From contig NZ_CP123384.1 in NCBI RefSeq assembly GCF_040409955.1, positions 1,146,001 to 1,210,000 on the forward strand: 64,000 nucleotides of DNA. The letters run 5' to 3'. The first letter of the stretch is position 1. The number at the start of each line of letters is the position of its first letter. A model generated the notes under the pieces. It saw nothing but the letters and a program-made list of their open reading frames with translations. It made no database searches and was not told the DNA's origin. The position numbers and the translations under genes are program-made. This DNA comes from Salipiger sp. H15. Its GTDB lineage: Bacteria > Pseudomonadota > Alphaproteobacteria > Rhodobacterales > Rhodobacteraceae. Below are positions 1-57,336 of this stretch, piece by piece.

Positions 1-138
1 TACGACCCGATCTTCCAGCCGCAAGGCTATGACATCACCTTCGCCGAGATGACCGGCGAGGAGAAGAACCGCATCAGCCACCGTGCCGATGCCTTTGCCA
101 AATTCGTGAAAGGCTGCTTTGCCCGCGATGACGCCTGA
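1..138 (+). CDS. rdgB: XTP/dITP diphosphatase, C-terminal end (partial)
   Basis: An open frame runs from base 1 to a TGA at 136-138 and gives the last 45 residues of a protein. The segment starts YDPIFQP and continues through a [11 protein letters not shown] stretch, which is the characteristic C-terminal substrate-binding region of the RdgB/HAM1 non-canonical purine NTP pyrophosphatases. These cytoplasmic enzymes hydrolyse ITP, dITP and XTP to monophosphates so that deaminated bases are not incorporated. The 5' part lies outside the window. The end overlaps the start of hemW by 11 bases, suggesting translational coupling. Family assignment is confident; nothing can be said about the missing catalytic half. 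Confidence 0.85.
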
Positions 139-1300
139 AGCCAGGCCTGAAACCTGGCGAGAAGGAGGCTTCGGCCTCTACGCGCATTGGCCTTTCTGCG
201 AGGCCAAATGCCCCTACTGCGACTTCAACAGCCACGTCGTCCGGTCGATCGACCAGACCCGCTGGGCAGACGCACTCAGCTCCGAGGTCCGCCGCTACGG
301 CGAGATGACCTCGGGGCGCATCCTCAACTCGATCTATTTCGGCGGCGGCACGCCCTCGCTGATGGAACCGGCCACGGTGCAGGCGGTGCTGGACGCCGCC
401 AAGGAGCACTGGACCTGGGCCAACGACATCGAGATCACGCTCGAGGCGAACCCGCGCTCGGTCGAGGTCTCGAAGTTCGAAGGCTTCCGCGAGGCGGGCG
501 TCAACAGGGTCTCCATGGGCATTCAGAGCCTGCGCCCGGACGATCTGCGCCGGCTCGGGCGGCTGCATGACGTGGACGAGGCCATCGTCGCGCTCGAGAC
601 CGCGAAGTCGGTCTTCGAAAGGGTCAACTTCGACCTGATCTACGCGCGCGAGAACCAGACCCTGAAAGGCTGGGAAACCGAGCTGCGCGAGGCGCTCGAT
701 CTCGCCGCCGATCACCTCTCGCTCTACCAGCTGACGATCGAGGAAGGCACGATGTTCTGGGAACGCGCGCAGCGTGGCCAGATGAAACATCTGCCGGACG
801 AGGATCTGGCCGCCGACATGTTCCTCGCGACGCAGGAGATCACTTCGAAGGCGGGTTATTCCCCTTACGAAGTGTCGAACCACGCCCTGCCCGGCGCGCA
901 GTCGCGGCACAATCTCGTCTACTGGCGCGGCGGCGATTATGTCGGCGTCGGTCCGGGCGCGCATGGCCGTGTCACGGTGAACGGCACCCGCCACGCCACC
1001 GAGGCCTGGAAGATGCCCGGCGCCTGGATCGAGAAGGCCGAGGCCGGTCGCGGCGACAGCGTCTTCGACGCGCTCACCACCGAGGACATCATGACCGAAT
1101 TCGTGATGATGGGCCTGCGGCTCGGCGAAGGGATCTCCCTTTCGCGCCTCGCCGCGATCTCTCCGAAACCCCTGCCCGCCCACAAGCTGGCCGAGCTTCA
1201 GGATCTGGGTCTGATCTGGCGCGAAAACGACCTGGTCGGCGCCACGACCGAGGGCCGGCTTGTGCTCAACGGCGTGCTGTCGGAACTGCTGACCAACTGA
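128..1300 (+). CDS. hemW: Radical SAM heme chaperone HemW
   Basis: The 390-residue product has the radical SAM cluster motif CEAKCPYC (Cys24, Cys28, Cys31) preceded by HWPF, then GGGTPSL near residue 75. The HxPFCxxKCxYCDF context is that of HemW, formerly annotated as oxygen-independent coproporphyrinogen III oxidase-like, and not of HemN proper. HemW proteins bind heme and a 4Fe-4S cluster and are thought to deliver heme to respiratory enzymes. I chose the ATG at 128; an in-frame TTG at 119 would add three residues but is a weaker start. The gene overlaps rdgB, as is usual in alphaproteobacteria. Length is normal for the family. Confidence 0.9.
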
Positions 1301-1389
1301 TCCACGTGAAATGTTCTCCACAGGATCCTGTTAGGATCCGGCGGAGATCCTGTGGAGAGATCTCTCCGCTTCAGGGACCTGAATACAAC

Positions 1390-1424
1390 AAAGGCCGAGC
1401 GCAGTGGCTCGGCCTTTGCTTTTC
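1390..1424 (+). terminator. Rho-independent terminator downstream of hemW
   Basis: A 10-bp inverted repeat (AAAGGCCGAG ... CTCGGCCTTT) with a loop of about eight bases is followed by GCTTTT. It sits 90 bp after the hemW stop codon and is oriented to end rdgB-hemW transcription before the oppositely directed parB gene. Confidence 0.75.
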
Positions 1425-1489
1425 TGGACAGATCCGTCGGATCCGGTCAGATCTAGTGGACAATGCGCCCCTCTGAAACCAGCGCGCCG

Positions 1490-1505
1490 CGTTTCATGTG
1501 AAACG
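1490..1505. promoter_or_regulatory. Degenerate parS-like site downstream of parB
   Basis: The 14-bp palindrome core GTTTCATGTGAAAC (1491-1504) differs from the parS core GTTTCACGTGAAAC by one central base; the outer bases are C and G instead of T and A. It is 38 bp from the parB stop codon. Central CG changes usually weaken ParB binding, so activity is doubtful. Confidence 0.4.
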
Positions 1506-1543
1506 GCGCGAGATCTCTCCACAGGATCCTGTGGAGAGATCCG

Positions 1544-2449
1544 TCAGCGCGCGGCGCTGAGGATGGCACAGAGACGGTCGAGTTCCTCGAAGCTCTGGTA
1601 GCTGATCACCAGCTTGCCACTCTCCTGCCCCGGCAGGTTCTGGATCGCGACCTTCATCCCCAGCGCCGCCGAGAGATCGCCCTCGAGCGCACGGGTGTCC
1701 GCGTCTTTCTGCCCTTCGCCAAAGCTGGTTTGACCCTGTTTCGGGGCTTTCTGTGTCTGCGGCTTTGCCAGCTGCTCTGCCTGGCGGACCGAGAGCTTGC
1801 GCCGGACGATCTCTTTCGCGAGCTCTTCCGGGTTCTCCGAAGTGATCAGCGTGCGCGCGTGGCCGGCGGTCAGCACCCCTTCGACGACCATGGTCTGGAC
1901 CGAATCCGGCAGGTTCAAGAGGCGCAGCAGGTTCGCGATGTGGCTGCGGCTCTTGCCGAGCGCTTCCGCGATCTTCTCCTGCGTATGGCCGAAGCGGTTC
2001 ATCAGCTGCTTGTAGCCCGCCGCCTCTTCGATGGCGTTCAGATCCGCGCGCTGGATGTTCTCGATGATCGCGACTTCGAGCACCTCGATGTCGTCGAACT
2101 CGCGCACCAGAGCCGGAACTTCGTGCAGCTGCGCCATCTGCGCAGCCCGCCAGCGACGTTCCCCGGCGACGATCTCGAACTCGCCTTCTGCGTTGGGACG
2201 CGGGCGCACGATGATCGGCTGGATGATCCCCTTGGCGCGGATCGATTCCGAGAGCTCGTTCAGCTGTTCCGGAGTGAAGGACCGCCGCGGCTGGTCCTTG
2301 TTCGGAAAGACCTTCTCGATCGGGATCATCCGATCCGGCTGGCGCGGGGTCGCCTCTTCCTCGACCGCGGCGGGCCGAACGTCCACATCCGACATCAGCG
2401 CCGACAGTCCTCGCCCGAGTCCCCGCCGCATTTCGCGTTTCTCTGCCAT
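1544..2449 (-). CDS. parB: Chromosome partitioning protein ParB
   Basis: The 301-residue protein starts MAEKREMRRGLGRGLSAL, with the basic GRGL segment typical of the ParA-interacting N-terminus. The ParB/Srx nucleotide-binding domain includes GERRWR near residue 96 (the CTP-binding GERRxR patch). A helix-turn-helix follows at about 150-175 (TQEKIAEALGKSRSHIANLL), and a dimerisation tail ends the protein. ParB binds parS, spreads as a CTP-dependent clamp and recruits ParA and SMC. I prefer the ATG at 2449 because GAGGG lies seven bases upstream; a GTG four codons earlier is less well placed. The gene follows parA by 27 bp in one operon, and its parS targets lie within 4.5 kb. Confidence 0.95.
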   Translation of the reverse strand: MAEKREMRRGLGRGLSALMSDVDVRPAAVEEEATPRQPDRMIPIEKVFPNKDQPRRSFTPEQLNELSESIRAKGIIQPIIVRPRPNAEGEFEIVAGERRWRAAQMAQLHEVPALVREFDDIEVLEVAIIENIQRADLNAIEEAAGYKQLMNRFGHTQEKIAEALGKSRSHIANLLRLLNLPDSVQTMVVEGVLTAGHARTLITSENPEELAKEIVRRKLSVRQAEQLAKPQTQKAPKQGQTSFGEGQKDADTRALEGDLSAALGMKVAIQNLPGQESGKLVISYQSFEELDRLCAILSAAR

Positions 2450-2476
2450 AACTGCCCTCACGTCACGTTTTTATGC

Positions 2477-3286
2477 TTATGCCGCCATCTGCGCATTGTT
2501 GCGCAGCAGTTCTTCCGCCAGGGCCCGGTAGGCCACGGCGCCTTTCGAGGTCGGATCGTACGTCAGCACCGGGCAGGCATAGGACGGCGCCTCGCTGACC
2601 CGCACGTTGCGCGGGATCACCGTGTTGAACACCAGGTCGCCAAGGTTCGCCCGGGCATCCTCCTCGACCATGCGCGACAGGTTGTTGCGCGCGTCGAACA
2701 TGGTCAGCACCACCCCCTCGATCCGCAGATCCGGATTGGCGCTCTGCCGCACTTCGCGGATCGTCAGCATCAGCTGCGACAGACCCTCGAGCGCGAAGAA
2801 TTCGCTCTGCAGCGGCACCAGGATCGAATGCGCGGCGACCATCGCGTTGACCGTCAGAAGGTTCAGCGACGGCGGGCAGTCGATCAGGACATAGTCGAAA
2901 TTGAACTCCGCCATGTCCGCCTGGCGCAGCGCGTCGTGCAGCAGGAAGCTGCGCTTTTCATTCGCCACCAGCTCGATGTCCGCCGAGGCCAGATCCACCG
3001 TCGCCGGGATCAGCGACAGGCCCTGGGTCTCGGTCTTCAGGATCATGTCCGAGAGCGGCGCGTCTTCGAGCAGCAATTCGTAGGCGGTGTATTCCCGCGC
3101 TTCCGGCTCGATTCCGAGCCCTGTCGACGAGTTGCCCTGCGGATCGAGATCGACGATCAGCACCTTCATCCCGCGCTCCGCAAGCGCCGCGCCGAGGTTG
3201 ATCGTCGTCGTGGTCTTCCCCACCCCGCCCTTCTGGTTGGCAATGGCAACGATCTTGGCCGCGCCGGGCCGGGGGGTATCAGACAT
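2477..3286 (-). CDS. parA: Chromosome partitioning ATPase ParA
   Basis: The 269-residue protein carries the deviant Walker A motif KGGVGKT (residues 19-25, signature Lys19). The Walker A' segment VLIVDLDPQGNSSTGLG and the Walker B-like VLIDCPPSLNLL follow. This is a chromosomal ParA (Soj) of the deviant Walker A ATPase family. It binds DNA non-specifically as an ATP dimer and is displaced by ParB, which drives origin segregation. The start overlaps the 3' end of rsmG by eight bases, giving the conserved order mnmG-rsmG-parA-parB. Length is normal for a short chromosomal ParA with no N-terminal DNA-binding extension. Confidence 0.96.
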   Translation of the reverse strand: MSDTPRPGAAKIVAIANQKGGVGKTTTTINLGAALAERGMKVLIVDLDPQGNSSTGLGIEPEAREYTAYELLLEDAPLSDMILKTETQGLSLIPATVDLASADIELVANEKRSFLLHDALRQADMAEFNFDYVLIDCPPSLNLLTVNAMVAAHSILVPLQSEFFALEGLSQLMLTIREVRQSANPDLRIEGVVLTMFDARNNLSRMVEEDARANLGDLVFNTVIPRNVRVSEAPSYACPVLTYDPTSKGAVAYRALAEELLRNNAQMAA

Positions 3287-3899
3287 GAGTCAGCGCTCCG
3301 ATTTGCAAGACAACCGCGTGGGGATCCGTCAGGCTTGTATGCCGTACCAGCTCAAACTGCCACATCTTGCGTGCCTCCGCGATTTCTTTTTCGGCCTGCG
3401 CGCCTTTCGGGAAGAGCGCCGTGCCATTCTCGCACAGGTGCCGGTCCGCGAACCCCAGCAGCTTGTCGAGCGAGGCCAGCGCCCGGGCGCTCAGCAGATC
3501 CGCGCCAAGCGGCGGGATTTCCTCGATCCGCCGCGCCTCGACCGTCGCGGGCACGCCGGTCTCCCGAAGCACCGTCCGCAAGAAGGCGCATTTTCGCTGG
3601 TCGCTTTCCACCAGCGTGACGGCCATCTCGGGCGCAAATTCATCGCGCAGGATGGCAACCACGAGCCCGGGAAATCCGCCGCCGCTGCCCAGATCCGCCC
3701 AATGCTGGGGATATCCCTGTGGAATTCCCCAGATCTGCGCGGAATCCACGATGTGGCGCGTCCACGCCTCGGCCAAAGTGGTCGGCGAAACGAGGTTGAT
3801 CCGCGGATTCCACTTCTTCAAGAGGTCCGTGTAGTGCTCGAGGCGGTCCCATGTTTCACGTGAAACACTGAGCCCGCCTCCAAGGTCCATCGCGCTCAT
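3279..3899 (-). CDS. rsmG: 16S rRNA (guanine527-N7)-methyltransferase RsmG
   Basis: This 206-residue Rossmann-fold methyltransferase has the SAM-binding motif [13 protein letters not shown] (about residues 68-80) and the upstream NLVSPTT segment characteristic of RsmG/GidB. It methylates G527 of 16S rRNA in the 530 loop; loss of function in other bacteria gives low-level streptomycin resistance. Codons 12-16 (VSRET) are encoded by a perfect parS site, so this stretch has a double function. The start codon overlaps the mnmG stop by four bases (ATGA), and the 3' end overlaps parA by eight, indicating a tightly coupled operon. Confidence 0.95.
3852..3867. promoter_or_regulatory. parS: parS centromere site inside rsmG
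   Basis: TGTTTCACGTGAAACA is an exact match to the 16-bp bacterial parS consensus and is a perfect palindrome. It lies inside the rsmG coding sequence, where it encodes Val-Ser-Arg-Glu-Thr. It is 0.6 kb from the parA start. Confidence 0.93.
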
Positions 3900-5773
3900 G
3901 CGCTGCGCGCCCGCTCGTTCCGGCGAAGGCGGATGAGAAGCAGCGAGAGCGCTGCCGGGGTCATCCCGTCGACTTTCGCGGCCTGCGCCAGCGTCGAAGG
4001 TTTCGCACGGCCGAGTTTCTGTTTCAGTTCGGTCGAAAGGCCTTCGATCGTCGAGAAATCGAAGTCGGAGGGCACCTGGTAGGTCTCGTCCCGCTTCAGC
4101 GCCTCGACATCGCGCTTCTGGCGGTCGATGTAATTGGCGTAGAGCGCGTCCTTCTCCAACTGTTCACCGGTTTCCGCGTCGATTCGGTCGAGATCAGGCA
4201 CGTGCTGGCGCAGGAAGTCCATCGAGATGTCCGGGAAGGCGAGGAGCTGGAAGAGACTCCGCCGTGCGCCATCCGCGTTCATCTTGAGGCCAAGGTCGCC
4301 AAGCTCGCGCGGCGTCATGGTGATTTCGCTGAGGACTCCCCTGCCCTGCTCGAGCTTTTCGGTCTTGTCGAGGAAGGCCGCCTTGCGGGTCTCGGAGACG
4401 CAGCCGAGGTCGATCGCCATCGGTGTCAGGCGCTGATCGGCGTTGTCGGCGCGCAGCGACAGACGGAATTCCGCGCGCGAGGTGAACATCCGGTAAGGTT
4501 CGGTCACGCCGCGCGAGGTCAGGTCGTCGACCATGACCCCGATATAGCTGTCGGCGCGGCTGAAGGTGATCGCGTCGCGGCCGAGGCTCTCGGCGGCGGC
4601 GTTCAGGCCCGCGACCATGCCCTGCGCAGCGGCTTCCTCGTAGCCCGTGGTGCCGTTGATCTGGCCGGCGAGGTAGAGACCGGGCGCAGCCTTGACCGAA
4701 AGGCGCAGGTCCAGCGCGCGGGGGTCGACGAAATCATACTCGATGGCGTAGCCCGGCTGCAGGATCTTCGCCTCTTCCAGCCCCAGGATGGAGTGAACAT
4801 AGGCCTCCTGCACGTCCTCGGGCAGCGAGGTCGAGATCCCGTTCGGATAGACCGTGAAATCGTCAAGTCCTTCTGGCTCAAGGAAAATCTGGTGAGAGTC
4901 CTTGTCCGAGAAGCGCACGATCTTGTCTTCGATCGAGGGGCAATAGCGCGGGCCTATGCCCTCGATATGGCCGCCGTACATCGCCGAACGCGAAAGGTTG
5001 TCGCGGATCAGCTCATGTGTCCGGGTGTTGGTATGGGTGATCCCGCAGGAGATCTGGCGGACGTAAGGCGCCTTTGACAGGAACGAGAACATCGCCGGAT
5101 CCTCGTCGCCGGGCTGGCTGTCGAGGATGTCCCAGTTGATCGTCCGCCCGTCAAGCCGCGGCGGTGTGCCGGTTTTCAGGCGTCCGAGCGGCAGCGCCAT
5201 CGCGTCGAGGCGCTCCGCGAGCTTGACCGCGGGCTTGTCGCCCATGCGCCCGCCGGGGCGCTTCTGATCTCCGATGTGGATGACGCCGCGCAGGAAAGTG
5301 CCCGTGGTCAGCACCACGGCAACAGATTTGAGTTCGGATCCGTCGCCGAGAACGACGCCGCGCACGAGATCCCCGTCCTTGATCAGGTCGGTCACCTCCC
5401 CTTCCACGATGGAAAGGTTGGGCGCGGCTTCCATCTCGCGCAGCATGGCTTCGCGGTAGAGCTTGCGGTCGGCCTGGGTACGCGGGCCTTGCACCGCGGG
5501 GCCCTTGCGACGGTTGAGAAGCCGGAACTGGATGCCCGCCTGGTCCGCGACGCGGCCCATGACACCGTCCATGGCGTCGATTTCGCGCACCAGGTGGCCT
5601 TTTCCGAGCCCGCCGATCGCCGGATTGCACGACATGACCCCGATCCCTCCTCGGGTCAGGGTGACAAGCGCGGTTTTTGCGCCCATCCGCGCCGAGGCGG
5701 CTGCGGCCTCGGTGCCAGCATGTCCGCCGCCAACGACGACGACGTCGAAATCGAGTTGTTTCACGTGAAACAC
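3896..5773 (-). CDS. mnmG: tRNA uridine 5-carboxymethylaminomethyl modification enzyme MnmG
   Basis: The 625-residue protein begins MFHVKQ and reaches an FAD-binding dinucleotide fold motif, [10 protein letters not shown], near residue 15. Family signatures such as CNPAIGG and the [13 protein letters not shown] segment follow, and a helical C-terminal domain binds MnmE. MnmG and MnmE together install the cmnm5 group at U34 of several tRNAs. The first codons ATG TTT CAC GTG AAA CA lie within a perfect parS sequence, so the translation start overlaps a ParB-binding site. mnmE ends three bases upstream of the start codon, in the same operon. Length is typical. Confidence 0.97.
5757..5772. promoter_or_regulatory. 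parS: parS centromere site at the mnmG start codon
   Basis: A second exact TGTTTCACGTGAAACA lies 1.9 kb from the first. On the minus strand it includes the TG of the mnmG ATG and codons 2-5. ParB bound here would cover the mnmG translation start and the mnmE-mnmG junction. Confidence 0.93.
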
Positions 5774-5776
5774 TCC

Positions 5777-7060
5777 TTACTTACCCAGGCAGAAGCTCGA
5801 GAAGATCTTGTCCAGAAGATTTTCCACGTCGACGCGGCCGATGAGGGCTTCGAGGCGGCGAATCGCGACCCGGACTTCTTCTGCAGCGATATCGTACCGC
5901 TCGGGGCCGAAATCAAGCAATTCCAGCGCGGTTTCCAGTGCAAAGGCGCCTTCCTGAAAGGCGATCCGGTGCCTTTCGCGTGTCGCGAGGCCGCTGGATT
6001 GCACCCTTTCGGAGAGGGTGGCGCCGATCTCGGTGATCAGCGCCTCGATCCCCTGCCCCGTCGCGGCGGAAATCGCCTTCGCGTCGCCCGAGAGATCCCC
6101 CTTCGAGCGGCGGACGATGTCGCCATGACGTGGCGTCACGTCGAGTTGCTCGTCAGCCTCTAGCAGGAAGACGCGAAGATCCGCGAGTTCCGCACGGTCA
6201 CGCGCGCGCTGGATGCCGATTTTTTCGACCGGATCCGCGGCCTCGCGCAGTCCGGCGGTGTCGAGCAGCGTCACCGGAAGCCCGGAGATTTCCATGCGGA
6301 CCTCGATCACGTCACGGGTCGTGCCCGCGTGTTCCGAGGTAATCGCCGCGTCCCGTCCAGCCAAGGTGTTGAGAAGAGTTGATTTTCCGACGTTCGGACG
6401 GCCGATGATCGCGACCTCGAAGCCGGATCTGATACGTTCCGCCGCGTCAACGCCGGCGAGCTCGCGTTCCAGCTCGGCCTTTACCTTGAGGAGCGCCGCA
6501 CGCACGTCCTCGGTGACGTCGACGGGAACCTCCTCGTCGGCGAAATCTATGGTGACCTCGAGCAGAGAGGCGGCGAAGATCAATTCCTCGCGCCAGGCGT
6601 CGACCTTCTTGCCGAGCGCGCCGACGAAGATCGTCATGGCCTGGTTGCGCTGACTCTCGGTTTCCGCCTCGATGAGATCGGCGAGCGCCTCGACCTGCGT
6701 GAGATCCAGACGGTCATGTTCCAGCGCACGGCGGGTGAACTCGCCGGGCTCGGCCTGGCGGATCCCGTCCATCGCGGCAAGTTCGCGCAACACGGCGCGC
6801 AGGATCGCGATGCTGCCGTGCAGGTGGAACTCGACCACCTTTTCACCGGTGAAACTGCGGCCTTCGTCGAAGACCAGGACCAGCGCCTCGTCGAGCACCT
6901 GCCCTGCCCTGTCGGTCAGACGGCGCAGCGCGGTGCGGCGCGGCTCGGGAACGGATCCGCAGAGACGGGAACAGGCGTCCCATGCGGAGGGTCCGGAGAC
7001 CCTCACCACGGAAACGCCTGCTTTGCCGACCGCGCTGGCAAGTGCGAAGATCGTATCCAT
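5777..7060 (-). CDS. mnmE: tRNA modification GTPase MnmE
   Basis: The 427-residue protein has the N-terminal tetrahydrofolate-binding domain (FALASAVGKAGVSVVRVSG; the more usual start is TIFA). A G domain follows, with P-loop GRPNVGKST near residue 220, then SEHAGTTRD and DTAGLREA. The protein ends in CLGK, the CxGK motif that is essential for tRNA modification. It partners with MnmG, encoded three bases downstream. The length is slightly short for the family (usually about 450) but all motifs are present. It is transcribed toward parA, away from rho by 24 bp. Confidence 0.96.
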   Translation of the reverse strand: MDTIFALASAVGKAGVSVVRVSGPSAWDACSRLCGSVPEPRRTALRRLTDRAGQVLDEALVLVFDEGRSFTGEKVVEFHLHGSIAILRAVLRELAAMDGIRQAEPGEFTRRALEHDRLDLTQVEALADLIEAETESQRNQAMTIFVGALGKKVDAWREELIFAASLLEVTIDFADEEVPVDVTEDVRAALLKVKAELERELAGVDAAERIRSGFEVAIIGRPNVGKSTLLNTLAGRDAAITSEHAGTTRDVIEVRMEISGLPVTLLDTAGLREAADPVEKIGIQRARDRAELADLRVFLLEADEQLDVTPRHGDIVRRSKGDLSGDAKAISAATGQGIEALITEIGATLSERVQSSGLATRERHRIAFQEGAFALETALELLDFGPERYDIAAEEVRVAIRRLEALIGRVDVENLLDKIFSSFCLGK

Positions 7061-7084
7061 CCCCGCCTCCTTTGCGGCTTGTCT

Positions 7085-8368
7085 TTAGCTGTTCATCGAG
7101 TCGAAGAACTCGCCGTTCGTCTTCGTCTGCTTCAGCTTCGAGAGCAGGAATTCGATCGCATCGGTCGTGCCCATCGGGTTGAGGATGCGGCGCAGCACGA
7201 AGGTCTTCTGCAGGTCGACCTTGTCGGTGAGCAGATCCTCTTTCCGGGTGCCCGACTTGAGAATGTCGATGGCCGGGAAGACGCGCTTGTCCGCGACCTT
7301 GCGGTCGAGCACGATTTCCGAGTTACCGGTGCCCTTGAATTCTTCGAAGATCACCTCGTCCATGCGCGAGCCGGTGTCGATCAGCGCGGTGGCGATGATG
7401 GTGAGCGAGCCGCCCTCCTCGATGTTCCGCGCCGCGCCGAAGAAGCGCTTCGGACGCTGCAGCGCGTTCGCATCGACGCCACCGGTCAGGACCTTGCCCG
7501 ACGACGGCACGACGGTGTTGAACGCCCTACCAAGTCTTGTGATCGAGTCGAGAAGAATCACAACATCTCGTTTATGTTCAACGAGGCGCTTGGCTTTCTC
7601 GATGACCATTTCCGAAACGGCCACGTGACGGGTCGCGGGTTCGTCGAAGGTCGAGGAGATCACCTCGCCCTTCACCGAGCGCTGCATGTCGGTGACTTCC
7701 TCGGGACGTTCGTCGATCAGCAGGACGATCAGGTAGCACTCGGGGTGGTTCTTCTCGATCGAGCTGGCGATGTTCTGCAGCAGCACCGTCTTACCGGTGC
7801 GCGGCGGCGCCACGATGAGCGACCGCTGGCCCTTGCCGATGGGCGCGACCAGGTCGATGATCCGGGCCGACTTGTCCTTGATCGTCGGATCCTCGATTTC
7901 CATCTTCAGGCGCTCGTCGGGATAGAGCGGCGTCAGGTTGTCGAAGGCGATCTTGTGGCGCGCGCGCTCCGGATCCTCGAAGTTGATCGCCGAGACGTCG
8001 ACCAGCGCGAAGTAGCGCTCTTCGTTGTCGGGGGCACGGATCTCGCCCTCGATCGTGTCGCCGGTGCGCAGCGAGTACTTCCGGATCATGTCCGGCGAGA
8101 CATAGATGTCGTCGGGACCCGGCAGGTAGTTCGCCTCGGGCGAGCGCAGGAAGCCGAAACCGTCCTGCAGAACTTCCAGAACGCCGTCGCCGAAGATGAT
8201 CCAGCCCTCGTCCGCGCGCTCGCGCAGGATCTGGAACATCATCTCGCCCTTGCGCATGGTCGAGGCGTTCTCGATCTCGAGTTCCTCGGCCATCGCCAGG
8301 AGATCCTTCGGGCTCTGCGCCTTGAGATCGGACAGGTTCAGACGCTCGATGCTTTCGGCATCAGTCAT
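7085..8368 (-). CDS. rho: Transcription termination factor Rho
   Basis: The 427-residue protein begins [20 protein letters not shown]. It has the N-terminal helical and cold-shock RNA-binding region ([22 protein letters not shown]), a Walker [12 protein letters not shown] near residue 180, [13 protein letters not shown], and the Q- and R-loop region around [13 protein letters not shown]. Rho is a hexameric RNA-DNA helicase that releases RNA polymerase. I chose the ATG at 8368 because GGAGG lies seven bases upstream; a longer in-frame reading of 23 residues lacks this. rho is the first gene of the leftward operon and abuts the proposed replication origin, as it does near the Caulobacter origin. 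Confidence 0.96.
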
Positions 8369-8907
8369 GCATTCCTCCGGGCCGGGGTCGGCCGTAGCTT
8401 TCGCAGGTATATTCTTGGTCTTCTGGGAAGGTCCCACCCGGACGGGTGTTGAGAAGATGCCTATCCCCTCCCCCCCTCGAAGTCAATTCCTGCCCGGACA
8501 CAGGCTCGCGGCGCGGCCTTACGAAAAATTAAGAAAGAAAAAAGAAGAGATGATTTTGGTTAAGGGTAACCCGACTCCAGTGGATAAAATGTTTCACGGA
8601 GCTCTGTCCACGGCGGATCCCTCTGTGGATAGATCTGCGGAGATCTGTCGGCGGAGCTTTGGGCGAATCTTCGTTCGGATCATGTAAAAAAGGCCTTTGA
8701 ATGGATAGACCCCCACTGGGGATAGATCTTTGAAAGATCTCGCGGGATCCGGTTCTCCACAGTGGGGAGTTATCAAAACCCACAGACTCAGGAATCACCG
8801 TGACTCTGCGGGAGCCTGAAGAGATCTCCCCAGCCTTGAAACCGGGGGCGATTTTCCCCAGAAGCTTCCCCTGACAAAGACCCAACTGTGCGAACAGGTT
8901 TATCCCC
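8369..8907. other. oriC: Proposed chromosomal replication origin (oriC) between rho and maf
   Basis: This 539-bp interval has no credible gene. It holds an A-rich stretch at 8521-8562, a possible unwinding element in a high-GC chromosome. DnaA-box-like 9-mers with one mismatch to TTATCCACA or its complement lie at 8579-8587, 8624-8632, 8753-8761 and 8900-8908, with two-mismatch copies at 8717-8725 and 8770-8778. There are six GANTC sites (8573, 8665, 8785, 8792, 8802, 8910), seven RGATCY hexamers in 8615-8827, and a parS half-site TGTTTCACG at 8590-8598. The flanking genes match the surroundings of the Caulobacter origin, between the rho-parAB side and the maf-aroE-coaE-dnaQ side. No full CtrA site is seen. 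Promoters for rho and maf must also lie here. Confidence 0.7.
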
Positions 8908-9507
8908 ATGAGTCTTCCGCTGATCCTCGCCTCCGGCTCGCAGATCCGTGCCGATCTGCTGCGCGCCGCGGGCGTTCCCTTCGGAATCGAGGTGGCGCGG
9001 GTCGATGAATCCTCGATTCGCGACTCGCTCCTGCAGGAGGGCGCGCCGCCGCGCGACGTGGCGGATGCGCTGGCCGAGTACAAGGCGCGCAAGGTGGCCG
9101 CCCGCAATCCCGGCGCGCTGGTGCTTGGCTGCGACCAGGTGCTGAGTTGCAACGGCAAGCTCTATTCGAAGCCGGAAAGCCCGGAAGAGGCGCGCGCGCA
9201 GCTCATGGAACTGCGTGACCAGCGGCTTCACCTTCTTTCCGCCGCGGTGATCTACGAGAATGCCGAGCCGGTCTGGCGCCACGTGGGTGTCGCGCGTCTC
9301 AAGATGCGCGCCTTCTCCGAGGCCTATCTCGACGACTATATAGAGAGAAACTGGGACAGCCTGCGCAGCTCGGTCGGAGGCTTCAAACTGGAGGAGGAAG
9401 GCGTGAGGCTTTTCGCGAGTATCGAGGGCAGCCATTTCACCATCCTGGGCCTGCCCCTGCTGGAGCTTCTCGGGTTCCTCGAAGTTCGCGGGGTGATTGC
9501 GGGATGA
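8908..9507 (+). CDS. maf: Maf family nucleoside triphosphate pyrophosphatase
   Basis: The 199-residue protein starts MSLPLILASGSQIRADLLRAAG, the Maf signature (LASxSxxR). It contains GCDQVLSCNG near residue 72, the conserved acidic catalytic segment. Maf/YhdE/YceF proteins hydrolyse nucleotide pyrophosphates, including modified or canonical pyrimidine nucleotides; the exact substrate class cannot be read from sequence with certainty. The ATG at 8908 overlaps the last base of a DnaA-box-like 9-mer. It is the first gene of an overlapping run maf-aroE-coaE-dnaQ reading away from the proposed origin. Confidence 0.92.
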   Translation: MSLPLILASGSQIRADLLRAAGVPFGIEVARVDESSIRDSLLQEGAPPRDVADALAEYKARKVAARNPGALVLGCDQVLSCNGKLYSKPESPEEARAQLMELRDQRLHLLSAAVIYENAEPVWRHVGVARLKMRAFSEAYLDDYIERNWDSLRSSVGGFKLEEEGVRLFASIEGSHFTILGLPLLELLGFLEVRGVIAG

Positions 9508-10334
9508 GCGGCGAAAAGATCCCCCTGGCGGGCGTCATCGGCTCGCCCATCTCCCATTCGCGCTCTCCCCTGCTGCACGGTCACTGGCTGCGGACCTACG
9601 GCCTGCCCGGTCACTACATCCCGATGGACGTGCCCGCGGCAAAGCTTGAAGAGACGCTGCGGCTGCTGCCGCAGATCGGCTTCGTGGGGGTGAACATCAC
9701 CATCCCGCACAAGGAGCGGGTGATGGAGATCGCCGACGTCGTGTCGGACCGCGCCACGCTGATCGGGGCGGCCAACACGCTGACCTTCCGCGAGGGCGGC
9801 ATGATCTATGCCGACAACACCGACGGATACGGCTTCATCGAGAACCTTCGGCAGGGCGCGCCCGGCTGGCGGGCCGATACCGGCCCGGCGGTGGTGCTGG
9901 GTGCGGGCGGAGCCGCGCGGGCGGTGATCGCCTCGCTGCTCGAGGCGGGCGTGCCCAAGCTCTATCTCAGCAACCGCACCCGGTTGCGCGCCGAGAAGCT
10001 GCGCGAGGACTTCGGCCAGCGCGTGCACGTGATCGACTGGGTGCACGCGGGCAACGTGCTCGAAGAGGCGAACCTGGTGGTCAACACCAGCTCGCTCGGC
10101 ATGGTCGGGAATGCCGAGCTGCGCGTGCCGCTCGACGGGCTCCGGCCGGGCACCTTCGTCACCGACATCGTCTACACGCCGCTCGAGACCCGGCTCCTGC
10201 GCATCGGGCGCGAGATGGGCTGCACCTGCGTCGACGGGCTCGGCATGCTGCTGCACCAGGCGGTGCCCGGCTTCGAGCGCTGGTTCGGCAAGCGCCCCGT
10301 GGTGGACCAGGCGACGCGGGCCGCGGTGCTCTGA
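9504..10334 (+). CDS. aroE: Shikimate dehydrogenase
   Basis: The 276-residue protein begins with GVIGSPISHSRSPLLH, the shikimate-binding N-terminus. It has the catalytic segment GVNITIPHKE (conserved Lys, about residue 70), NTDGYGF for substrate binding, and an NADP-binding GAGGAARA with NRTR after the following strand. AroE reduces 3-dehydroshikimate to shikimate using NADPH in aromatic amino acid synthesis. It overlaps maf by four bases and shares one base with coaE, so the four genes are probably translated from one message. Length is standard. Confidence 0.96.
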   Translation: MSGEKIPLAGVIGSPISHSRSPLLHGHWLRTYGLPGHYIPMDVPAAKLEETLRLLPQIGFVGVNITIPHKERVMEIADVVSDRATLIGAANTLTFREGGMIYADNTDGYGFIENLRQGAPGWRADTGPAVVLGAGGAARAVIASLLEAGVPKLYLSNRTRLRAEKLREDFGQRVHVIDWVHAGNVLEEANLVVNTSSLGMVGNAELRVPLDGLRPGTFVTDIVYTPLETRLLRIGREMGCTCVDGLGMLLHQAVPGFERWFGKRPVVDQATRAAVL

Positions 10335-10924
10335 TGCGCTTCCGGCTCGGCCTCACCGGCTCGATCGGCATGGGAAAGTCGCAGACGGCGGCCTTCTTCG
10401 CCGAGGCCGGTTGCCCGGTCTGGGACGCGGATGCGGCGGTGCACCGGCTCTACGGTGCCGGCGGCGCGGCGGTCGGCCCGATCGCGGCGGCCTTTCCGGC
10501 GGCCGTCACGGACGGCGCGGTTTCACGTGAGGCGCTGCGCGGGATTATCGCGGCGGATCCCGGCGCGCTGGCGCGGATCGAGGCGATCGTGCATCCGCTG
10601 GTGCGCGAGGACCGCGCGCGCTTTGCCGAGTGCCATCCCGGGGCCATCGGGGTCTTCGACATTCCCCTGCTCTACGAGACCGGATCCGAGGCCGAGTTCG
10701 ACGCTGTGGCCTGCGTCACCGTCCCCGGGGAGATCCAGCGCGAACGGGTGCTGGCGCGCGGCACGATGAGCGAGGCGGATCTCGACCGCATCCTTGCCCG
10801 CCAGATGCCGACTGCCGAGAAATGCGCCCGCGCGGATTTTGTGATCACAACGGACACGCTGGACCATGCCCGCGCGCAGGTTCAGGATGTGCTGAAGGAA
10901 ATCGAAAGGCGGACCGATGCGTGA
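10334..10924 (+). CDS. coaE: Dephospho-CoA kinase
   Basis: This 196-residue P-loop kinase begins MRFRLGLTGSIGMGKSQTA, with Walker A GSIGMGKS at residues 9-16. VWDADAAVHRLY and the central HPLVRED and DIPLLYE segments of CoaE follow. It phosphorylates the ribose 3' hydroxyl of dephospho-CoA, the last step in coenzyme A synthesis. The start overlaps the aroE stop by one base and the end overlaps dnaQ by eight. Codons around 10519-10534 resemble a parS site but match only 12 of 16 bases. Confidence 0.95.
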   Translation: MRFRLGLTGSIGMGKSQTAAFFAEAGCPVWDADAAVHRLYGAGGAAVGPIAAAFPAAVTDGAVSREALRGIIAADPGALARIEAIVHPLVREDRARFAECHPGAIGVFDIPLLYETGSEAEFDAVACVTVPGEIQRERVLARGTMSEADLDRILARQMPTAEKCARADFVITTDTLDHARAQVQDVLKEIERRTDA

Positions 10925-11609
10925 GATTGTTCTCGATACGGAAACAACGGGCTTCGAACCGGAGCAGGGCGACCGGATCGTCGAGATCGGCGCCGTCGAG
11001 CTCTACAATCACGTGCCCACGGGCAAGGTCTACCACCAGTACATCAACCCCGAGCGGTCGATGCCGCAGGAGGCCTTCGAGGTGCACGGGCTGGGTGACG
11101 ACTTCCTGCGCGACAAGCCGGTCTTCGCGAAGATCGTCGACGACTTCCTTGCCTTCATCGGCACCGATGCCAAGCTGGTGATCCACAACGCCACATTCGA
11201 CGTGAAATTCCTGAACGCCGAGCTGAAATGGGCGAACCGCCCGCTGCTGCCGAAGGATTGCGCCATCGACACGCTGATGATCGCGCGCAAGAAGTTCCCC
11301 GGCTCGCCCGCCTCGCTCGACGCGCTCTGCCGCCGCTTCGGCATCGACAACTCGAGCCGGACGCTGCACGGCGCGCTGCTCGACAGCGAGATCCTCGCGG
11401 ATGTCTACCTGGAACTGATCGGCGGCAAGCAGCCCGACCTCGTGCTGGCGCCGGTCTCCGCCGGGCGCTCGAACTCGGGCACGGACGAGGAATGGCGCCC
11501 GGCGCGGCGCCCGGTGCCGCTGGCCTCGCGGATCACCGATGAAGAAAAGGCGGCTCACGCCGCCTTTGTCGAGAAACTCGGAGAGAAGGCGCTCTGGTCG
11601 CGGGGCTGA
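10917..11609 (+). CDS. dnaQ: DNA polymerase III epsilon subunit (3'-5' proofreading exonuclease)
   Basis: The 230-residue protein starts MREIVLDTETTGFEP, the Exo I motif with the catalytic Asp-Glu pair. It continues with Exo II (VIHNATFDVKFLN) and Exo III with its histidine (SRTLHGALLDSEILA), so it belongs to the DEDDh class. The C-terminal extension past residue 180 would carry the alpha-subunit-binding region. It proofreads for the replicative polymerase. Its position beside coaE near the origin is conserved in alphaproteobacteria. The last codons contain a strong inverted repeat (11546-11567), which may reduce read-through into the convergent secB gene. Confidence 0.95.
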   Translation: MREIVLDTETTGFEPEQGDRIVEIGAVELYNHVPTGKVYHQYINPERSMPQEAFEVHGLGDDFLRDKPVFAKIVDDFLAFIGTDAKLVIHNATFDVKFLNAELKWANRPLLPKDCAIDTLMIARKKFPGSPASLDALCRRFGIDNSSRTLHGALLDSEILADVYLELIGGKQPDLVLAPVSAGRSNSGTDEEWRPARRPVPLASRITDEEKAAHAAFVEKLGEKALWSRG

Positions 11610-11631
11610 GGCCCCGCCACCCTGCCCGCGC

Positions 11632-12159
11632 TCAGGCGTCGAGCTTGCGCTCTTCCGGAGCCGGCGCGCTGGCCTGCTGACGGCGGAGGATCTCGTTGCG
11701 GTAGAGCGCGACGAAATCGATGGTCTCGAGGTTCAGCGGCGGGAAGCCACCGTCGCGGGTCACGTCCGACACGATGCGGCGCACGAAGGGGAAGAGCATC
11801 CGCGGGCATTCGATCAGCAGGAACGGGTGCAGCTGCTCCTGCGGCACGCCTTCGATGTTGAACACGCCGGCATAGTCGAGCTCGAGCAGGAACAGCATGT
11901 CGCCGCTGGCCTTCGACTTGGACTCGACCTTCAGCTTCAGCACCACCTCGTACTGGTTCTCGGCCGAGCGCTTCTTGGCGTCGAGGTTGACCTGCACCTG
12001 CACATCGGGCTGGACCTCGCCGCTCACACCCTTCTGCGCGAGGATGTTCTCGAAGCTCATGTCGCGCACGAACTGCGCAAGCACGTTCATCTTCACCGCC
12101 GCCGGGGCCTGCTGCGCCGCTGCCGCGCCGTTTTCGTTCATTTCGCTGATTTCAGCCAT
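11632..12159 (-). CDS. secB: Protein export chaperone SecB
   Basis: The 175-residue protein contains the SecB core: KMNVLAQFVRDMSFENI in the first strand, VNLDAKK, YEVVLKLKVESKS, the acidic LLELDYAGVFNIEGV and CPRMLFPFVRRIVSDVTRDGGFPPLNLE. SecB is a tetrameric cytoplasmic chaperone that holds preproteins unfolded and passes them to SecA. The Gln- and Ala-rich N- and C-terminal tails are typical of alphaproteobacterial SecB. It is convergent with dnaQ and separated by 22 bp. It is followed upstream by fxsA on the same strand. Confidence 0.96.
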   Translation of the reverse strand: MAEISEMNENGAAAAQQAPAAVKMNVLAQFVRDMSFENILAQKGVSGEVQPDVQVQVNLDAKKRSAENQYEVVLKLKVESKSKASGDMLFLLELDYAGVFNIEGVPQEQLHPFLLIECPRMLFPFVRRIVSDVTRDGGFPPLNLETIDFVALYRNEILRRQQASAPAPEERKLDA

Positions 12160-45908: not shown

Positions 45909-48509
45909 ATGCTCCCCATGCCCTTGGATACGCCTCCGCCCTCAGCGCGGCCCTGGCCGACGACCCAGCCCGGAGTCGAAACCCGCGCGGAGATGCCGGA
46001 CGCGCTTGTCGTCGGCGCGACGCGCGTCTCGGGTGCGGATTTTGGGACGGCCTTCCGGGAGGCGATGCGGGATATCCAGCCCGAAGAGCTCGGAAACGAG
46101 GCTGGGCCCGTCATGAGTGATACGCCAATGGCCACGTGCAAAGATGATCTCATCGCGGCTCGTTCCGAGGCGCCTGATCAGAGTGCCGGGATGGGGGAGA
46201 GTCCGGAGGTCACTGAGGAGGAGCATCGCTGGTACGGAATTGAGCCCCTCGACGACATTGCACTTCCCGAACTCGTTGAAAAGAACATTGGGACACCTGA
46301 GATACTGCGGGGCCTAAATATTCTTTCGCCCGAGCCCGACGAAGAAGGGGTGGGCGACCCGAGCATTGTGAGCATCCAGCGGTCCGGTCCCGACAATGCG
46401 TTGCAGATGACGACTGGGCCACGCTTAGGAGGTCCGATGGTGCTGCAGCACTTTCTGGAGGCCGTTCTCTTCCAGGCCGATGCGGAAGCCGCACCGCCGA
46501 AGAACCCTGCCTTGCGGGAGGCCGACTGTGGCTATCGAACCAGCGAGCCGAGGCTGGCGGGCGACGAGAGCGCGTCGCCCGCGCTGCCCGAAGTGAGCCG
46601 GGCTCAGGACGGGATTCCAAATGTCTCGCCCATGGCTATGCCCTTGCTGCCGCGGTCGAAATCACCCGAAGTTATTTCCTCTGTGCTGCGTGAAGCGCGT
46701 CCGGACGGACAAAAATCCCAAGAGGGCTCCGAGCAAGAGATGGCGGATTCAGGCGTCTTGGCAAAGGACGAAATCGCTTCTGGAGAGTTCCCCGCGCGCT
46801 GGCGCCCGGATCCCGGCCACGTGCGGCCTGCGGACGAATCTCCTGCGCCAGTCCGGCGGGTAAATTCCGATGGGGATAACGCATATCCGCGCAAAGCGTT
46901 CGAGGAGACCGAGGCCATATCCGCAGGACCACGCGCGCTGCTCGCGTGGGACGCGGCTCGCGAGCGGAAGGCCAATCCCGATCGCCCACCGTCAGGCAGA
47001 CAGAGGGTTCATACCGCGCACCAACAGGTCGCCGCCCGCAAACTCGGGGAGGAGTCCGAGGCGCGCGGACGATCCACGCCTTCCGGCAAACCACGCTCAG
47101 ATGCGCGGTCGATCCAGCCAGCCAGCGAGTCTCAAAGTCTGTCTGTGGCTGTTGGCGCCAGTGCGAGCGCACCGGGCGTCATGCTTTCGAACGTCTCTCT
47201 TCCAGTCATTCAACATGGGAAGGGCAGTGCCCACCGATCCTCAGGGGCCGAGCCTCGGTCCGCGGAATTGCAGGAGAAGATAATGGCTCGGAGCGTTTCC
47301 GCCGTCCGCGCGCCCTCCGAGCCATCGGCCTCAACGGGCCCGGACGTCGAGCGTCGCGCACGTCCTTGGGAGCAGCGACCGTCGCCAGAATTGCCGGCGA
47401 CGGTCACTGCGGTGATCGAACCGGAGGACCGCGACAGCGAGAGTGTGCAACCAGAAGCGCGTCGCCTGCGCGGCACTGCAGCACCCGCGCCGTCGATCTC
47501 CGAAACACTTCAATCCGAGTCGGACGTGAGACCCGCAGATGTCCGATCACGCGACCGGCGTCCGGTAACTCCTCGCGCGTCGGGCAAACTGCCAGCGAGG
47601 CTGGGGACGGACAGACAGTCAGAAGCGGGGTTCCCGGTGGCAGTTCGTCCAGACCGAACAGAGACCGGCGGATCCATGTCGGCGGATGGGCGTGGTTCAA
47701 GCGCCCCTGAATGGAGGGCCTTGGGCTGGGGTAAGGCGGGCGGACGCGATCCGGAACTTGCGGAGGGACATTCGAGAGGGGATCCTGCCGACGTGAATAA
47801 GCAAATTTTCCTGCGGAAAGAACCGGGAAAGGCTCATGTATCGGCGGTTGAGATGCGATCAACGCGCTTGCATCCCCCAAGCAACGCTGCGCCTCCGCAG
47901 CCCTTGCCAGACATGTCGGTTCGTGACGCGGGGCAGAGCAAATCTTCGGTCGCCAAGCCGGAGACGCGCGCCGTCGTCGAGGCGGTGAATGGGTTGCTCT
48001 CCGAGCCGAAGCCTCTGCGCAGCCGCGACAGCGACGAGCCGTTAAGCGAGGCCCTGTTGCCCCGTGCCCCGGCTTCGGTGCTTCCCGCAAGAGACTCGGG
48101 TCCGGTGCCGCGAAACGTGCCGATGTCGCCGCTTCGTCAGGTCGCGGAGGCGATCGTTGCCGGCGCGGAGGGAGAGGTGGATATCCGACTCGAACCCGAG
48201 GAGCTGGGGCGGGTCAGGTTTCATATCCAGCTCACCGACCATGGTGTCGCGCTGCATGTGAGCGCGGACCGACCCGAAACGCTCGAGATGCTGCGGCGGA
48301 ATGTCGACCAACTTGCGCGGTACCTGTCGGAGTCGGACATACAGAGCAGCAACTTCAGCTTTTCCGGGGAGCGCCGGGGCCGGCCCGCCGCCGCGCCAAG
48401 TACAAAAGGCCCCGGAGCCCAGGCCACCTCCGAACGCGTGTCGGGAGGGAGGTCGGACGCCGTGGCGCACTGGCGGATTTCGCCGAAGGGAATGGATCTC
48501 AGGCTGTAG
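45909..48509 (+). CDS. fliK: Flagellar hook-length control protein FliK
   Basis: The 866-residue protein is mostly low-complexity, Ser/Pro/Glu/Arg-rich and probably disordered. It ends in a typical Flg_hook (FliK C-terminal) domain at about residues 740-815: VDIRLEPEELGRVRFHIQLTDHGVALHVSADRPETLEMLRRNVDQLARYL. FliK measures the hook and triggers the FlhB specificity switch. At 866 residues it is longer than the 400-600 common in the family. Base composition of the disordered part is less GC-biased than the neighbours, consistent with relaxed selection. It is followed 28 bases later by flgD. The start may be the ATG at 45909 or the one at 45918. Confidence 0.88.
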   Translation: MLPMPLDTPPPSARPWPTTQPGVETRAEMPDALVVGATRVSGADFGTAFREAMRDIQPEELGNEAGPVMSDTPMATCKDDLIAARSEAPDQSAGMGESPEVTEEEHRWYGIEPLDDIALPELVEKNIGTPEILRGLNILSPEPDEEGVGDPSIVSIQRSGPDNALQMTTGPRLGGPMVLQHFLEAVLFQADAEAAPPKNPALREADCGYRTSEPRLAGDESASPALPEVSRAQDGIPNVSPMAMPLLPRSKSPEVISSVLREARPDGQKSQEGSEQEMADSGVLAKDEIASGEFPARWRPDPGHVRPADESPAPVRRVNSDGDNAYPRKAFEETEAISAGPRALLAWDAARERKANPDRPPSGRQRVHTAHQQVAARKLGEESEARGRSTPSGKPRSDARSIQPASESQSLSVAVGASASAPGVMLSNVSLPVIQHGKGSAHRSSGAEPRSAELQEKIMARSVSAVRAPSEPSASTGPDVERRARPWEQRPSPELPATVTAVIEPEDRDSESVQPEARRLRGTAAPAPSISETLQSESDVRPADVRSRDRRPVTPRASGKLPARLGTDRQSEAGFPVAVRPDRTETGGSMSADGRGSSAPEWRALGWGKAGGRDPELAEGHSRGDPADVNKQIFLRKEPGKAHVSAVEMRSTRLHPPSNAAPPQPLPDMSVRDAGQSKSSVAKPETRAVVEAVNGLLSEPKPLRSRDSDEPLSEALLPRAPASVLPARDSGPVPRNVPMSPLRQVAEAIVAGAEGEVDIRLEPEELGRVRFHIQLTDHGVALHVSADRPETLEMLRRNVDQLARYLSESDIQSSNFSFSGERRGRPAAAPSTKGPGAQATSERVSGGRSDAVAHWRISPKGMDLRL

Positions 48510-48537
48510 TCACGGCCCAGTTCAGCAGGAGGACGAC

Positions 48538-49200: not shown

Positions 49201-49222
49201 CCGGACGGCGGCTCCGGCAGTG

Positions 49223-50755: not shown

Positions 50756-50756
50756 G

Positions 50757-51509: not shown

Positions 51510-51590
51510 GGGCCTTGCCGTCCTGTGTCCGACACTCCTTATAGAGCCCGCGCGCCGCGCTGCAATGCGGCCCATTGGAAAGGATCCGTG

Positions 51591-52442: not shown

Positions 52443-52506
52443 CTTGATTGCGAGGGGCAAGTTGGTAAGGCTGCGCGACAATGCCAACGGACGGGAGCCC
52501 GAAGAC

Positions 52507-53283: not shown

Positions 53284-53289
53284 GGCTTC

Positions 53290-53332: not shown

Positions 53333-53365
53333 TGTCCCCGCGGGGACGGGCCGCATCTTGAATCG

Positions 53366-54611: not shown

Positions 54612-56009
54612 ATGACGCAGGAACAATGGGGCGCGCTGCAAGACAGGCTGAGCAGCACGATCGGGGAAAACAATTACCGAACCTGGATCAAGCCCCTCGA
54701 ATATAAAGGTCTGGAGGCCGACGGGGTGGCGGTCTTCCTGGCACCAACGAATTTTATCGGCACCTATGTGTCGCAGAATTTCGGCGATCTGCTGCTGTCG
54801 CAGATCTCGACCGTGGATTCGCAGGTCAGACGCCTGCAGTTCCGCGTGAGCAACGCGCCGCGTCCGGCGGCGGGCCGTCCGAGCCCGCGCCCGGTGGCGG
54901 CGCAGCCCGAGCAGATGGCGCAGGCCAATGGCGGCGCGGCGCAGGCCGCGCAGGGCGGAAGTGACCTGCTGCCGAGCGCGCCGCTCGACGCACGCTTCAC
55001 CTTCGACAACTTCATCGTCGGCAAGCCGAACGAGCTGGCCCATGCCGCCGCGCGCCGCGTGGCGGAGGCCGAGACCGTGACCTTCAACCCGCTGTTCCTC
55101 TACGGCGGCGTGGGCCTCGGCAAGACGCACCTGATGCACGCGATCACCTGGGAGCTGCGCAACCGCCGCCCCGACCTGAACGTGCTCTATCTCTCGGCCG
55201 AGCAGTTCATGTACCGCTTCGTGCAGGCCCTTCGCGAACGCCGCATGATGGACTTCAAGGAACTGTTCCGCTCGGTCGACGTGCTGATGGTCGACGACGT
55301 GCAGTTCATCGCCGGCAAGGACTCGACGCAGGAAGAGTTCTTCCACACGTTCAACGCGCTGGTGGACCAGAATAAGCAGATCGTCATCTCGGCCGACCGC
55401 GCGCCGGACGAGATCAAGGATCTCGAGAACCGCATCCGCTCGCGCCTGCAGTCCGGCCTCGTGGTCGACCTGCACCCGACGGATTACGAGCTGCGCCTCG
55501 GCATCCTGCAGTCCAAGGTCGACACCTACCGCAAGCAGTACCCGTCGCTGCAGCTCGACGCGGGCATCCTCGAGTTCCTGGCGCACCGGATCTCGACCAA
55601 CGTGCGCGTGCTCGAGGGGGCGCTGACCCGTCTCTTCGCCTTCGCCTCGCTGGTCGGCCAGCCGATCACCATGGAGCTGACGCAGGACTGCCTCGCGGAC
55701 GTGCTGCGCGCCTCGGACCGCAAGATCTCGATCGAGGAGATCCAGCGCAAGGTGGCGGACCACTACAACATCCGCCTTTCGGACCTCATCGGCCCGAAGC
55801 GCGTGCGCAACTTCGCGCGCCCGCGCCAGGTCGCGATGTACCTGTGCAAGCAGCTGACCTCGCGGTCGCTTCCCGAGATCGGCCGCCGCTTCGGCGGGCG
55901 TGACCACACCACCGTCATGCACGGGGTGAAGCGGATCGAGGAACTGCGCATGCAGGACAGCCAGATCGCCGACGACATCGAGCTGCTGCGCCGCGCGCTC
56001 GAGGCTTGA
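54612..56009 (+). CDS. dnaA: Chromosomal replication initiator DnaA
   Basis: The 465-residue protein has domain I ([26 protein letters not shown]) and a short Ala/Pro/Gln-rich domain II (about 80-120). AAA+ domain III has Walker [12 protein letters not shown] near residue 165, Walker [12 protein letters not shown] and a sensor region ([21 protein letters not shown]). Domain IV carries the DnaA signature [21 protein letters not shown]. DnaA-ATP melts the origin. It is about 46 kb from the proposed origin at 8369-8907. dnaN follows 191 bp later. Confidence 0.97.
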
Positions 56010-57319: not shown

Positions 57320-57336
57320 CGGCACCGCCGCGACAT

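Follow-up and report, generated by a model that had tools for sequence, protein, structure and literature searches.

The replication origin (oriC) of contig C1 lies very probably in the intergenic gap between the divergent genes rho and maf (8369..8907, without strand), to which DnaA boxes, other motifs, the genus alignment and skew point. This assignment is made because GC skew and the polarity of the octamer GGGNAGGG switch near it, a dif-like site lies roughly opposite, DnaA boxes of the gap are kept in relatives and dnaA wanders between genomes; the same evidence supports the preliminary description, in which the gap had been read as oriC. The gap also contains an array of RGATCY hexamers that is repeated beside parB, a feature that looks unusual and, by a narrow literature search, apparently new.

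The window, that is, the whole stretch of 64,000 nucleotides analysed (C1:1146001-1210000), belongs to a genome of 6.11 Mb in seven contigs, with C1 comprising 2,930,083 bases. Maf encoded in the window shows 93–95% identity with the proteins of Alloyangia mangrovi, Alloyangia pacifica and Salipiger mangrovisoli, and the organism is therefore regarded as a Rhodobacteraceae member of the Alloyangia/Salipiger mangrovisoli group.

Gene neighbourhood and chromosome arms

Gene names (hemW, parB, gidB, gidA, trmE, rho, maf, aroE and dnaA) were taken from NCBIfam. The bounds given earlier for the gap are exact, since rho (7085..8368, minus strand) starts at 8368 and maf (8908..9507, plus strand) starts at 8908. 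The gap had also been described as free of genes, and this holds: mechanical open reading frames entering it are not preserved across the genus alignment, in which indels and conserved islands are visible by eye. The window further contains parB (1544..2461, minus strand; TIGR00180 over cut-off) and a gene of a parA-like ATPase (2477..3286, minus strand), recognised by ParA/MinD-type models, all below cut-off, and by its place beside parB. In Caulobacter, the origin is flanked by parB-parA-gidB-gidA-trmE-rho on one side and maf-aroE-coaE-dnaQ on the other; Caulobacter crescentus Cori shares the gene neighbourhood, together with the GANTC/CcrM background.

Among loci L005-L049, whose titles place them in Rhodobacterales (some are given just as MAGs of Pseudomonadota), rho was found 0.4–1.9 kb upstream of maf in 43 of 45; a contig end interrupts the remaining two. 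In many of these loci, rho and maf are separated by about 450 bp more than in Salipiger/Alloyangia, and some have an extra gene beside rho, which in L011 is hemJ-like by eye. In most of loci L050-L084, mostly sphingomonads and unaligned, rho is about 3 kb from maf, an approximate value obtained with an out-of-frame rho query.

Two perfect matches to the 16-mer parS consensus, TGTTTCACGTGAAACA, are situated at 3852..3867 and 5757..5772 and a degenerate parS with three mismatches at 1490..1505 (all without strand). Three more parS-like 16-mers with 2–3 mismatches occur at G000:C1:1141484-1142990 (L094 15484-16990), 3–4.5 kb before the window.

C1 was sampled as 84 stretches plus the window, 1.69 of 2.93 Mb (58%), and arm counts were made on 83 of them, without the stretch holding the dif-like site. 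GC skew is positive in 34 of 39 right-arm stretches and negative in 38 of 44 left-arm ones, with the wrong sign in 11 of 83. The octamer GGGNAGGG, the FtsK-orienting sequence of E. coli, occurs on the right arm 230 times in forward and 27 times in reverse orientation and on the left arm 30 and 235 times, respectively. Within the window, GC skew amounts to −0.0135 on the left side of the gap and to +0.032 between it and dnaA. Copies of GGGNAGGG between the gap and dnaA are mixed (10 forward, 6 reverse), still giving a log-likelihood ratio of 6.3 nats for the right arm; on the basis of the skew and these 6.3 nats, the stretch as far as dnaA is assigned to the right arm.

A check proposed earlier was whether the minimum of the cumulative GC skew of the chromosome falls into the gap. 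In the sampled C1, the polarity does switch near the gap, but the contiguous 394-kb block has its minimum at position 3921 of the window, 4.4 kb outside. The cumulative GGGNAGGG minimum of the same block is at 11.6–15.3 kb of the window, and the two minima therefore bracket the gap without pinpointing it, at a resolution of about 10 kb. A dif-like 28-mer was found at C1:2708927, where the GGGNAGGG polarity flips, roughly opposite the gap. The 19-base dif pattern, modelled on published alphaproteobacterial dif sites as given in PMC2731167, has its sole C1 match at this position and a second match on C2. With C1 assumed to be circular, arm lengths come to about 1.55 and 1.38 Mb, and two forks leaving oriC in opposite directions would converge close to the dif-like site (C1:2.709 Mb).

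Origin elements and the position of dnaA

Four of the eight one-mismatch DnaA boxes of the 64-kb window are concentrated in the rho-maf gap, as had been stated before. The box TTATCCACT at 8579..8587 (minus strand) has a one-mismatch counterpart at this place in 2 of 20 genus genomes. At the place of CTATCCACA (8624..8632, minus strand), 18 of 20 genomes have a box with one mismatch or none, including the perfect TTATCCACA in 8; for TTCTCCACA (8753..8761, plus strand), the corresponding number is 9 of 20. The box TTATCCCCA (8900..8908, plus strand), whose last base is the A of the ATG of maf, has a counterpart at the maf start, with no more than one mismatch, in all 20. None of 2000 dinucleotide shuffles of the gap reached four boxes (shuffle mean 0.07), and the gap is alone in having at least three one-mismatch boxes per 400 bp in the 1.68 Mb of non-N C1 sequence examined.

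The A-rich 42-mer at 8519..8560 (plus strand), with 23.8% GC, is the lowest-GC 42-mer of the window. A low-GC stretch is present at the aligned place in relatives too, and GATGATTTTG (8549-8558) is conserved, in a count made by eye, in 15 of the 20 genus genomes. Within 894 kb of C1, two further places are equally low in GC, so that the 42-mer is rare but not unique. It is probably the duplex unwinding element. From these elements, we infer that DnaA would bind the boxes at 8579, 8624, 8753 and 8900, extend towards the A-rich stretch and open it.

In the basal unwinding system described in PMC8287927, DnaA boxes stand near an A-rich stretch with GATGAT trinucleotides, as is the case here. By our own version of the published DnaA-trio rule, the gap has a run of five trios (6 of 1000 shuffles reach five), which, in contrast to that system, is set on a weak two-mismatch box and is inconsistent in the genus. 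A minimal rule (a box within 16 bp of at least three trios) is obeyed in this genome and matched in one way or another in 13 of the 20 genus genomes, where the boxes differ; 164 of 1000 shuffles also passed it. The basal-unwinding rule was set aside for its inconsistency across the genus.

The motif counts of the preliminary description required one correction: five GANTC sites were counted in the gap instead of six. There is no GANTC enrichment in the gap, as 586 of 2000 dinucleotide shuffles reach five, and a denser GANTC group is located upstream of dnaA; GANTC was consequently dismissed as an origin signal. The parS half-site TGTTTCACG is present at 8590, and the seven RGATCY hexamers were found as noted. 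No shuffle of 2000 reached seven, so the trait known from Dam/SeqA-type origins, dense potential methylation sites at oriC, is present. The CtrA site TTAA-N7-TTAA is absent from the whole 64-kb window, in which the origin differs from Caulobacter Cori, and CtrA control of the origin was set aside for this window. CcrM is the usual methylation mark in Alphaproteobacteria, and we know of no RGATCY array in Caulobacter. According to PMC4285127 and PMC6399470, DnaA sites of Caulobacter crescentus occur at the origin and the centromere, and its high-affinity boxes are TGATCCACA, which differs from the boxes here; those of the present genome are candidate sites recognised by their letters.

An alternative would be that the origin is situated at dnaA (54612..56009, plus strand) and that the rho-maf gap is something else. 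Origins linked to dnaA are common in bacteria, and the gap 5' of this gene (54163-54502) has nine GANTC sites, more densely set than at oriC, which suggests CcrM-timed expression of dnaA. Moreover, dnaA is conserved close to ori in Rhodobacterales by the statement in PMC8116508, which fits the present case at the scale of tens of kilobases and is true only on that scale, not for dnaA as the origin itself. Against this stands the complete lack of one-mismatch DnaA boxes from 46880 to 64000, with one two-mismatch match in the gaps flanking dnaA, as well as the arm polarity, which is opposed to such a location. The distance of 45.7 kb between the rho-maf gap and dnaA agrees with the earlier figure of 46 kb, and it is far from constant in the genus: where dnaA and maf are on one contig (17 of 20 genomes), dnaA is on the maf side in 14, at 23–47 kb, and the remaining three (G003, G008 and G012) have it on the parB side, at 58–131 kb, with the rho-maf gap staying in place. 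An origin at dnaA is accordingly extremely unlikely, and the claim that dnaA is not the origin marker was borne out. For annotation, it means that dnaA, which moves when the rho-maf gap does not, is unfit as an exact origin marker in this genus.

Some observations count against an origin in the rho-maf gap, namely the preservation of the boxes at 8579 and 8753 in just 2 and 9 of 20 genomes at one mismatch and the unenriched GANTC. In PMC6699656, oriCs of 101 Rhodobacteraceae chromosomes were assigned by Ori-Finder with parAB proximity as a criterion. These origins belong to the same family and have a low-GC location and DnaA boxes, parAB and the GC-disparity minimum serving as criteria; the motif set includes TGTTTCACG, found here at 8590. 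The text of that paper covered here names neither the rho-maf gap nor an RGATCY array. Since parAB-linked origins were already predicted across the family (PMC6699656), the location of the present origin is ordinary for Rhodobacteraceae.

Twin RGATCY arrays and the composite motif

The oriC array (8615..8827, without strand) consists of hexamers starting at 8615, 8631, 8641, 8724, 8735, 8745 and 8822, with spacings of 16, 10, 83, 11, 10 and 77 bp. The second array, 7 kb from oriC, occupies the hemW-parB gap (1301..1543, without strand), where ten RGATCY hexamers in 243 bp start at 1323, 1334, 1345, 1358, 1430, 1439, 1449, 1511, 1524 and 1537. Spacing within groups is 9–13 bp, with one of 16, in this genome. 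Stretches of 240 bp with at least five RGATCY were found in the 1.68 Mb of C1 examined just at 1131-1543 and 8615-8827 of the window, with an overlapping few hundred bases; the hits beginning at 1131 and 1201 are contributed by the end of hemW. The 17 hexamers comprise 8 AGATCT, 6 GGATCC and 3 AGATCC, and on the parB side GGATCC (4) is more frequent than AGATCT (3). A strong terminator-like stem at 1389-1418 stands mid-array between hemW and parB and is kept, by eye, in 7 of 7 genomes of the clade.

The arrays are confined to the Alloyangia group. All seven genomes of this clade (G000, which is our own, G005, G009, G010, G013, G014 and G015) have 6–8 RGATCY at oriC and 9–10 in the hemW-parB gap. 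In twelve other genomes of the genus, each gap has 0–1 and the array is absent, and G016 is intermediate, with five RGATCY at oriC and no parB-side gap. The hemW-parB gap measures 240–252 bp in the clade versus 0–93 bp in the 13 non-clade genomes, so the latter offer little room for an array and lack most of the gap along with it; the oriC gap is alike in both (513–541 bp). Tight RGATCY triplets fall into the two gaps in 10 of 13 cases in G009, 8 of 16 in G013, 10 of 14 in both G005 and G010, and 10 of 15 in G015, and in 0 of 78 over the ten non-clade genomes listed in full (the tally was made without G000, G001, G011, G014 and G017). On the parB side, 37 of 60 columns inside the hexamers are identical against 61 of 189 outside. 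At oriC, hexamers are hardly more conserved than their surroundings (27 of 42 versus 313 of 509 columns identical).

A plasmid origin was considered for either array and rejected, as neither gap had a match in PLSDB in distant mode. The maf contigs are 2.7–2.9 Mb long in three array-bearing species (C1 of G000, G010 and G014) and 4.1–4.6 Mb in three array-free species (G006 C5, G017 C1 and G019 C6). Possession of the array may be associated with a smaller main chromosome accompanied by other large replicons.

At both gaps, RGATCY is joined to a DnaA-box core in a fixed arrangement, the 13-mer RGATCY-N-TCCMCA. The pattern scan found it at oriC as AGATCTATCCACA (8624..8636, minus strand) and AGATCTATCCCCA (8717..8729, minus strand) and in the hemW-parB gap as AGATCTCTCCACA at 1351..1363 (minus strand). 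Beside the parB stop, AGATCTCTCCACA at 1511..1523 (plus strand) and GGATCTCTCCACA at 1530..1542 (minus strand) form the left and right halves of a near-perfect palindrome. These five, three beside parB and two at oriC, are all the composites of the 6.11-Mb genome. A reversed control pattern has no match in the own genome and 0–2 per strand in the 20 genus genomes. The composite was drawn up after the sites had been viewed, and its exact form is therefore fitted to them. The tally of relatives is a fairer test, though the genomes are related and not independent: the seven clade genomes have 28 of their 34 composites at the two gaps, and the remaining 13 of the genus have 0 of 33 there. The hemW-parB gap also has five DnaA boxes with at most two mismatches, four of them with two; 1 of 1000 random sequences reaches that number.

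The position of the palindrome between the convergent hemW and parB, where terminators are expected, could mean that it is an RNA hairpin or terminator and resembles oriC by chance. This is very unlikely in view of several findings. Terminator-like sites were located at 1389-1418 (plus strand) and 1234-1249 (minus strand) and none at the palindrome, and a search of 1-12000 against Rfam returned nothing at gathering score. Besides, the composite is confined in this genome to the hemW-parB gap and oriC, and oriC is flanked on both sides by gene starts rather than by a 3' end.

Possible readers of the RGATCY hexamers

RGATCY is crowded into oriC in the Alloyangia group and, to some extent, in G016, with some copies fused to box cores and others set in rows about one helical turn apart. 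The arrangement is best explained if the two arrays make up one regulatory module working with DnaA, in which initiation and partition would answer the same signal, either DnaA-ATP loading, adenine methylation of RGATCY, or both. We consider a shared DnaA-linked module at oriC and parB slightly more probable than not, the coupling being what we infer from the arrangement of the sites. The helix-turn-helix of DnaA without clade-specific change and the two mismatches in four of the five parB-side boxes count against it, as does the presence of GGATCC in 6 of 17 hexamers, which is not predicted by the E. coli 6-mer. Changed DnaA specificity as a cause of the arrays was rejected: the DNA-binding helices contain no clade-specific residue, and the sole one in domain IV is residue 447, near the C-terminus. 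Similar connections of partition and initiation are known. In Vibrio cholerae chromosome II, by the account in PMC6399470, the rctA/parS2 partition locus lies near the origin and has initiator sites, as here, with the difference that its initiator is RctB with iterons and the present sites are DnaA-like cores with RGATCY.

What would recognise the hexamers can be explained in several ways. It is a real possibility, held tentatively and at less than even weight, that the arrays are adenine-methylation marks whose half-methylated state after passage of the fork delays re-initiation and tags the new centromere, a Dam/SeqA-like arrangement that would have evolved independently. In E. coli oriC, where Dam and SeqA act, GATC-containing sites are likewise crowded among DnaA boxes; the present case differs in having RGATCY and not GATC, in the lack of a PF02086 match and in the repetition of the array beside parB. 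RGATCY, together with GANTC, is a 6-methyladenine motif in all Sulfitobacter genomes of the study reported in PMC9025767. In the two gaps, 17 of 18 GATC are RGATCY, against 1681 of 14,195 outside the window, and in the composite five hexamers adjoin the core of a DnaA box or overlap with it. The mixture of AGATCT, GGATCC and AGATCC corresponds to the R/Y freedom of a methyltransferase site and fits a methyltransferase better than sites for ATP-DnaA. Searches for the enzyme speak against methylation: there is no Dam-type PF02086 in the own genome at E 0.001, and the single PF01555 gene, presumably CcrM, has strong matches in 20 of 20 genus genomes. PF00145, the cytosine type, has eight matched stretches in the own genome and none in G005 or G014, both of the clade. 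In the sampled C1 (58%), scanning for catalytic motifs gave 15 hits, by eye a piece of a type I-like methylase, RNA or protein methylases, or spurious frames, with no likely enzyme among them. Thus, a clade-shared PF00145 or an extra PF01555 was not found as the RGATCY enzyme, nor was PF02086 found in the own genome, to which its search was confined. No SeqA-like reader is known to us here. The ccrM-like PF01555 gene is on C2 in G000 (G000:C2:895626) and G010 (G010:C2:295240) and on the maf-bearing contig in G014 (G014:C1:1157934), pointing to transfer between replicons.

A second reading, possible and somewhat doubtful, is that RGATCY hexamers are low-affinity ATP-DnaA sites, along which box-anchored DnaA would spread over AGATCT-like hexamers, giving opening at oriC and titration or a partition trigger at parB. 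AGATCT is the E. coli 6-mer ATP-DnaA box (PMC4285127, PMC10225481), and according to PMC6399470 DnaA binds Caulobacter parS and RctB binds the centromere of V. cholerae chromosome II. The composite sets RGATCY against TCCMCA, and the 9–13 bp spacing (one of 16) fits a DnaA filament. However, AGATCT is outnumbered by GGATCC on the parB side, it is described in PMC4285127 as bound single-stranded and so far for E. coli alone, and the DNA-binding helices of DnaA domain IV are unchanged in the clade. This and the methylation reading can both be true, as for GATC and DnaA in E. coli. It is also conceivable, and on the whole unlikely, that a clade-specific protein other than DnaA, such as an origin-anchoring or nucleoid factor, binds the rows of RGATCY. 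The confinement of the arrays to two ori-par loci, in 7 of 7 clade genomes versus 0 of 12 others with G016 intermediate, agrees with such a protein, which leaves the fusion with DnaA-box cores unexplained.

Returning to the methylation reading, its most specific form is that a CcrM-bearing group evolved a second origin mark, with RGATCY adenine-methylated as in Sulfitobacter, twin arrays fused to box cores and half-methylation timing both re-initiation and centromere movement. As a whole, we regard this as improbable enough to be offered as a conjecture. If true, it would mean a Dam/SeqA-like switch that reads the origin and the centromere together. The array hexamer matches a motif for which methylation has been reported within the order. 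The twin arrays provide a test of the coupling of replication start with centromere movement, for which the array-free sister species are natural controls.
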